DNA of 64,000 nt from an uncultured Oscillospiraceae bacterium (GTDB lineage Bacteria; Bacillota; Clostridia; Oscillospirales; Oscillospiraceae): NCBI GenBank assembly GCA_947626315.1, contig CANQRQ010000009.1, positions 1 to 64,000 of the forward strand, in the 5' to 3' direction. Positions 50,043-50,206 of this stretch are shown piece by piece. The translations under genes and the position numbers were made by a program. The notes under the pieces are model-generated. The model had not been told where the DNA came from. It worked only from the letters and a program-made list of their open reading frames with translations, and ran no database searches. Within the stretch, counting starts at the first letter, position 1. Every line of letters starts with the position of its first letter.

Positions 50043-50206
50043 CGGCAAAGATGCCGAATGAGGCGGTTTATTTGCGCTGGATTTAAAGCATTTTAACAAA
50101 AATACGCATGGTCTGTTGACAAAAAAGCGCATCCGTTCTATAATCGCAGCCATGATGAAGCGGCAAAGACGTCGTTGGTTATTACGGCGTCTTTGCCGCT
50201 TCTTTT
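50043..50206 (+). promoter_or_regulatory. glnA promoter/attenuator with two A1/G4 hexaloop hairpins (ANTAR target candidate)
   Basis: CGGC-AAAGAT-GCCG (50043-50056); TTGACA-N17-TATAAT (50116-50144); AGCGGC-AAAGAC-GTCGTT (50159-50176) overlapping terminator GAAGCGGCAAAGACG…CGTCTTTGCCGCTTCTTTT (50157-50206). Confidence 0.75.

Follow-up and report, generated by a model that had tools for sequence, protein, structure and literature searches.

The window, by which we mean the whole stretch of 64,000 nucleotides that was analysed, carries a same-direction series consisting of a T-box leader, asnB, a gene for an ANTAR protein, and a gene (glnA) for a type III glutamine synthetase (GSIII) (Table 1). 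The specifier of the T-box, read by eye from the alignment, is AAC (Asn), and a perfect promoter lies upstream of this leader, at positions 47514-47542. asnB is probably the first gene of an operon that ends in the ANTAR gene, and through this operon asparagine supply would also set the level of the ANTAR protein. A preliminary description of this DNA had named both the ANTAR gene and the GSIII gene downstream of it, and Pfam agrees in each case, the C-terminal ANTAR domain scoring 63.8 bits against a cut-off of 27.3 (E = 1.2e-17). The glnA promoter reported there is likewise present, and transcription is predicted to start at about 50150-50153. The GSIII reading frame is open from position 50216; the start was placed at the conserved MNSV, on the basis that the alignment of most homologues begins at around residues 8-12 of the long frame.

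Table 1. Features of the asnB-ANTAR-glnA region, with positions in the window (R1, covariance model of the leader element).
Feature	Position	Strand	Evidence or remark
T-box leader of asnB	47585..47826	+	Rfam RF00230, E 8e-24
asnB	47867..49447	+	Pfam; gene order asnB-ANTAR-GSIII shared with L033
ANTAR protein, 186 aa: pseudo-receiver, long coiled coil, ANTAR domain	49473..50033	+	Pfam PF03861
First hairpin, CGGC[AAAGAU]GCCG	50043..50056	+	Present; close behind the ANTAR stop (50033)
glnA (GSIII) promoter, TTGACA-N17-TATAAT	50116..50144	+	12/12 consensus matches
Intrinsic terminator, stem and U tract	50157..50206	+	Folding, covariation, R1 49.6 bits
ANTAR-type hexaloop hairpin, AGCGGC[AAAGAC]GUCGUU; A1 50165, G4 50168	50159..50176	+	Covariation, loop conservation
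Type III glutamine synthetase (glnA)	50249..52342	+	Pfam GSIII_N, Gln-synt_C, Gln-synt_C-ter; E 5.1e-82

The AlphaFold2 model of the ANTAR protein, a confident one (pLDDT 95.8), comprises three parts, namely a receiver-like domain, a long helix, and the ANTAR domain. Its best match in the PDB is EutV bound to RNA (6ww6), and AmiR (1qo0) also matches structurally. The EutV residues K149, E160, and M172, which hold or seat the flipped G4 of the RNA loop (PMC8934654), correspond to K144, E155, and M167 and are invariant in 45 relatives. Other EutV contacts have undergone conservative changes (K143, K147, and R177) or are not kept (R142 to T, R168 to E, and R175 to G), and Tyr164, which stacks on G4 in EutV, is His159 in the window protein; at this position most relatives have His and one clade has Gln (alignment A2). 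The phospho-acceptor Asp54 is replaced by Asn in most relatives and by Gly in the window protein. Because the acceptor is missing, phosphorylation of the receiver is probably not the signal, and activation by this route appears unlikely; our guess would be that the signal arrives via a protein or metabolite partner such as glutamine synthetase or GlnK.

Two exclusive folds in the glnA leader

The terminator in the glnA leader has a stem of 19 pairs (50157-50202), a TTTT tail (50203-50206), and an energy of -36.1 kcal/mol; it is as strong as had been described and ends in the same T4 tail, but its stem is longer than the 15 bp given at the time. As also proposed, its left arm can refold into a hairpin with a short stem and a six-base loop that has A at position 1 (A1) and G at position 4 (G4), and the loop fits the EutV 13-mer AGCAANGRRGCUY save for the final loop base. 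This hexaloop hairpin overlaps the 5' arm of the terminator, and the two folds are mutually exclusive. With the hexaloop enforced, the energy of the leader is -14.9 kcal/mol, and because the terminator is much more stable, the alternative fold needs help. An Rfam scan found no known riboswitch or leader at the glnA leader site and returned only the asnB T-box and chance matches. Elsewhere in the window, a weak R1 match at 28453-28486 (23.6 bits) resembles an ordinary terminator behind a gene.

The same hairpin stands directly behind the promoter in GSIII leaders of the same genus and of other Clostridia, and many members of the class have the element at the start of their GSIII mRNAs. The cultured species Anaerotignum lactatifermentans and Herbinix hemicellulosilytica are among the relatives that carry it. 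Across 112 GSIII leaders with a sigma-70 type promoter, it lies at a fixed distance after the promoter: counted without requiring pairing, AANGRY occurs 75 times at 10-19 nt past the -10 box, compared with 1-8 times in other 10-nt bins. Hairpins at that position, counted without requiring A1 or G4, comprise 78 with hexaloops, against 10 with five-base and 16 with seven-base loops, and A1 is found in 67 and G4 in 64 of the 78. The covariance alignment of glnA leaders from relatives that had been suggested as a check was built from 49 leaders (alignment A1), and both stems covary in it. The hexaloop stem scores 0.595 against 0.297 when shuffled (0/500), with both sides changed in 43 cells versus 18.5 in shuffles, and the terminator stem scores 0.384 against 0.241 (0/500), in an alignment whose selection for A1/G4 and at least 4 bp inflates the paired percentage, leans covariation measures towards structure, and deprives loop conservation within it of evidential value. 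Without that selection, at least 4 bp are formed in 38/71, where shuffles have a mean of 11.3 and a maximum of 21. Since the two stems covary on common bases, both of the exclusive folds are maintained. The most strongly conserved bases are those of the loop and its closing pair, and the hairpin of the window belongs to a set of dozens of homologous copies that covary and sit at a fixed position. That the leader holds a constitutive, unregulated terminator-like hairpin is extremely improbable, as this would account for a default fold that is a strong terminator but would give no reason for the covariation of the hexaloop stem or for the conservation of the loop.

Some leaders depart from this arrangement. 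In L055, L056, L057, and L059, which are GSIII leaders of the same genus, another strong hairpin (CGGCGGGAGCACGACGCUUCCGCCG) occupies the place, without an A1/G4 hexaloop. GSIII leaders L098 and L099, from Treponema and Spirochaetaceae MAGs, contain a pair of such hexaloops spaced by about 66 nt, which suggests that the leader was transferred along with its gene, or that the MAGs were mis-binned.

ANTAR genes and further targets across genomes

To relate the element to ANTAR proteins, R1 was run over whole genomes. In an independent class sample of 243 genomes, each at least 90% complete, ANTAR was detected by Pfam match in 31/33 genomes with the element, spread over 17 family codes, compared with 103/210 without it (Fisher p = 2.9e-7, kinship ignored). 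The family sample gave 31/37 versus 62/114 (p = 0.0016, kinship ignored), and within the genus the element (at least 35 bits) was found in 16/24 ANTAR-positive versus 3/37 ANTAR-negative genomes (p = 2e-6, kinship ignored), the latter three being only 72-83% complete. ANTAR status changes only about four times within the genus tree, where an ancestry-corrected test is uninformative, and many ANTAR-bearing genomes have no element. The leaders of four ANTAR-less relatives keep the promoter and terminator, but in L035, L037, and L043 the hexaloop stem is disrupted, and in L040 the loop has changed. The genome of the window has a single ANTAR gene, next to glnA; a need for such adjacency was rejected, as the ANTAR gene of most element-bearing relatives lies elsewhere, in many cases next to a type I glutamine synthetase.

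The few genomes in which the element occurs with no detected ANTAR gene (2/33 in the class, 6/37 in the family, and 3/19 in the genus sample) would fit an attenuator read by some other factor, be it an RNA-binding protein, a small RNA, or a small-molecule aptamer, with ANTAR co-occurring by ancestry. Shared ancestry is not fully controlled in the counts above, and the binding of ANTAR to the hexaloop is itself predicted. We nevertheless consider such a reader unlikely, given the breadth of the co-occurrence in the class sample, a loop length and A1/G4 pattern that are known ANTAR determinants, conservation that peaks in the loop and closing pair, and the lack of any matching Rfam family; moreover, an element of 18 nt whose stem varies would make a small aptamer.

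One further plausible R1 site (32.1 bits) was found in the same genome, in the leader of amtB (L203 1470-1640, minus strand, contig C3), the product of which has a match to amt and, as it seems, a PII-like stretch at its end. This leader has two AAAGGC hexaloops 53 nt apart, the first lying over a terminator. The hairpin of the second lacks a U tract, ends just before a Shine-Dalgarno sequence, and may act on translation. Targets in other genomes include asnA, asnB, pyrG, glmS, purB, and purC, as well as genes for an ABC transporter substrate-binding protein and a glutamate-synthase-like electron-transfer subunit, and most targets of the element make or use glutamine or ammonium.

One hexaloop or two

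Antitermination by EutV acts on eut leaders with two hexaloops separated by a linker of 5-12 nt (PMC3369931, PMC8934654); a 14-nt linker severely impairs it (PMC3369931), and the addition of 20 nt abolishes it (PMC8934654). The preliminary description had proposed such a pair for glnA, formed by the conserved hexaloop and the hairpin that follows the ANTAR stop codon, straddling the promoter and thus carried together only by read-through transcripts from asnB-ANTAR. The upstream hairpin does exist, as the tip of a larger stem of -20 kcal/mol around the stop codon, and CGGC-AAAGA is common to both loops. When the 124-nt interval was shuffled, just 0.6% of the shuffles held an AANGRY hexaloop of 4 bp or more and 5.8% held any A1/G4 hexaloop, which is suggestive by itself, but the hairpin is not conserved, being absent from L033, L036, and L039, relatives in the same genus that share the ANTAR-GSIII order. 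The gap of about 100 nt to the conserved hexaloop also contrasts with the linkers of eut leaders, the perfect promoter in between yields transcripts that have no first hairpin, and no partner hexaloop is found elsewhere in the family. A classical dual hexaloop, with the hairpin at 50043 as P1 and that at 50159 as P2 on read-through transcripts only, is therefore very unlikely. The upstream hairpin is probably not part of the glnA attenuator and may have a role at the end of the asnB-ANTAR operon.

A hidden second hexaloop beside the conserved one was rejected as well, since A1/G4 partners within 20 nt (4/68 upstream and 4/68 downstream) are not above the background of the control (66/745). A1/G4 loops in the terminator's apical portion, another candidate, were rejected as occasional and unconserved, and the window leader has no second hexaloop on a linker of 5-12 nt. 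The conserved hexaloop starts at, or within a few nucleotides of, the predicted transcript start, and because it lies directly behind a conserved promoter, the ordinary transcript would carry this one hexaloop, with no read-through needed. Thus, the attenuator of ANTAR type proposed for glnA finds support in covariation, the A1/G4 loop, co-occurrence, and the nitrogen regulon, whereas its two-hairpin architecture and its restriction to read-through transcripts do not.

Tandem units do occur in 11 of the aligned leaders and in several genomes positive with the covariance model, the two hexaloops of a leader lying 53-166 nt apart, with the amtB leader at the lower end. One ANTAR dimer might accordingly be imagined to bridge distant hexaloops, over such distances within a leader or between two transcripts, but we rate this as highly improbable: most glnA leaders, that of the window included, have one conserved unit, and trans binding was judged unlikely for EutV (PMC8934654). 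The copies commonly own a terminator each and look like repeated attenuators, which fits them better.

Control of glnA by ANTAR is well supported by comparison. As the best explanation, and a likely one, we propose that the glnA leader is a single-hexaloop ANTAR attenuator at the 5' end of the transcript, acting by antitermination. By default, the far more stable terminator would form, ending transcription roughly 55 nt downstream of its start. Under nitrogen limitation, the ANTAR protein encoded next to glnA would bind as a dimer to the hexaloop emerging from RNA polymerase and hold it, so that the terminator could not form and glnA would be transcribed. What comparison shows is that each promoter-proximal unit has one hexaloop, that the two exclusive folds covary, that the element co-occurs with ANTAR genes and marks a nitrogen regulon, and that the protein is EutV-like. 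As a counterpoint, both hairpins are essential for antitermination by EutV, in vivo and in vitro (PMC3369931, PMC8934654), so that by analogy a single hexaloop might bind the protein without antiterminating. The changed RNA contacts (Tyr164, R142, R168, and R175 of EutV), the role of ancestry in the co-occurrence counts, and the genomes that have only the element or only ANTAR also weigh against the proposal. It is fairly probable that the leader belongs to a widespread class in Clostridia, defined by one hexaloop at the 5' end, an ANTAR protein with a non-phosphorylated pseudo-receiver, and a nitrogen-assimilation regulon, proposed to comprise GSIII, the ammonium transporter, and asparagine, CTP, and purine synthesis. 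If true, a pair of adjacent hexaloops would no longer be a general requirement of ANTAR antitermination.

Relation to known ANTAR systems

AmiR, an ANTAR protein of Pseudomonas aeruginosa, has a receiver-like fold and is controlled by its bound partner AmiC, not by phosphorylation. It resembles the window protein in structure (PDB 1qo0), whereas its amiE leader has been assigned a dual hairpin (PMC3369931); no AmiC-like partner was found here. The closest parallels are with EutV and the eut leaders of Enterococcus faecalis, which share with the glnA system an A1/G4 hexaloop over the 5' arm of a terminator (PMC3369931, PMC8934654), a loop near AGCAANGRRGCUY, and the same ANTAR fold with K149, E160, and M172 conserved. 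Unlike these, the glnA leader has one hexaloop rather than two on a linker of 5-12 nt, the hairpin lies at the very start of the mRNA, the receiver has no phospho-acceptor, and the targets are glutamine synthetase and genes of ammonium use.

Earlier proposals have already placed clostridial glutamine synthetase or GS-GOGAT genes under ANTAR-type antiterminators, namely NitR of Clostridium acetobutylicum and the product of the ANTAR gene Clo1313_2030 of C. thermocellum (cited in PMC4676874), and in this respect they resemble the present case; the C. acetobutylicum work concerns an antisense RNA, and the text consulted makes no mention of a single-hexaloop leader. Ramesh et al. (2012) predicted ANTAR motifs before nitrogen genes, including those for glutamine synthase enzymes, with a search that required two hairpins and would thereby miss a single-hexaloop class by design (PMC3369931). 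A single-hexaloop glnA leader is not described in the literature searched, which reached few subscription papers. Walshe et al. (2022) narrowed the minimal ANTAR site to a single hexaloop, left the function of single hexaloops open, and called for bioinformatic and experimental work on them (PMC8934654). The leaders analysed here offer dozens of natural single-hexaloop cases that are directly testable, and they point to a way in which ammonia assimilation may be controlled in many Clostridia of gut and rumen.
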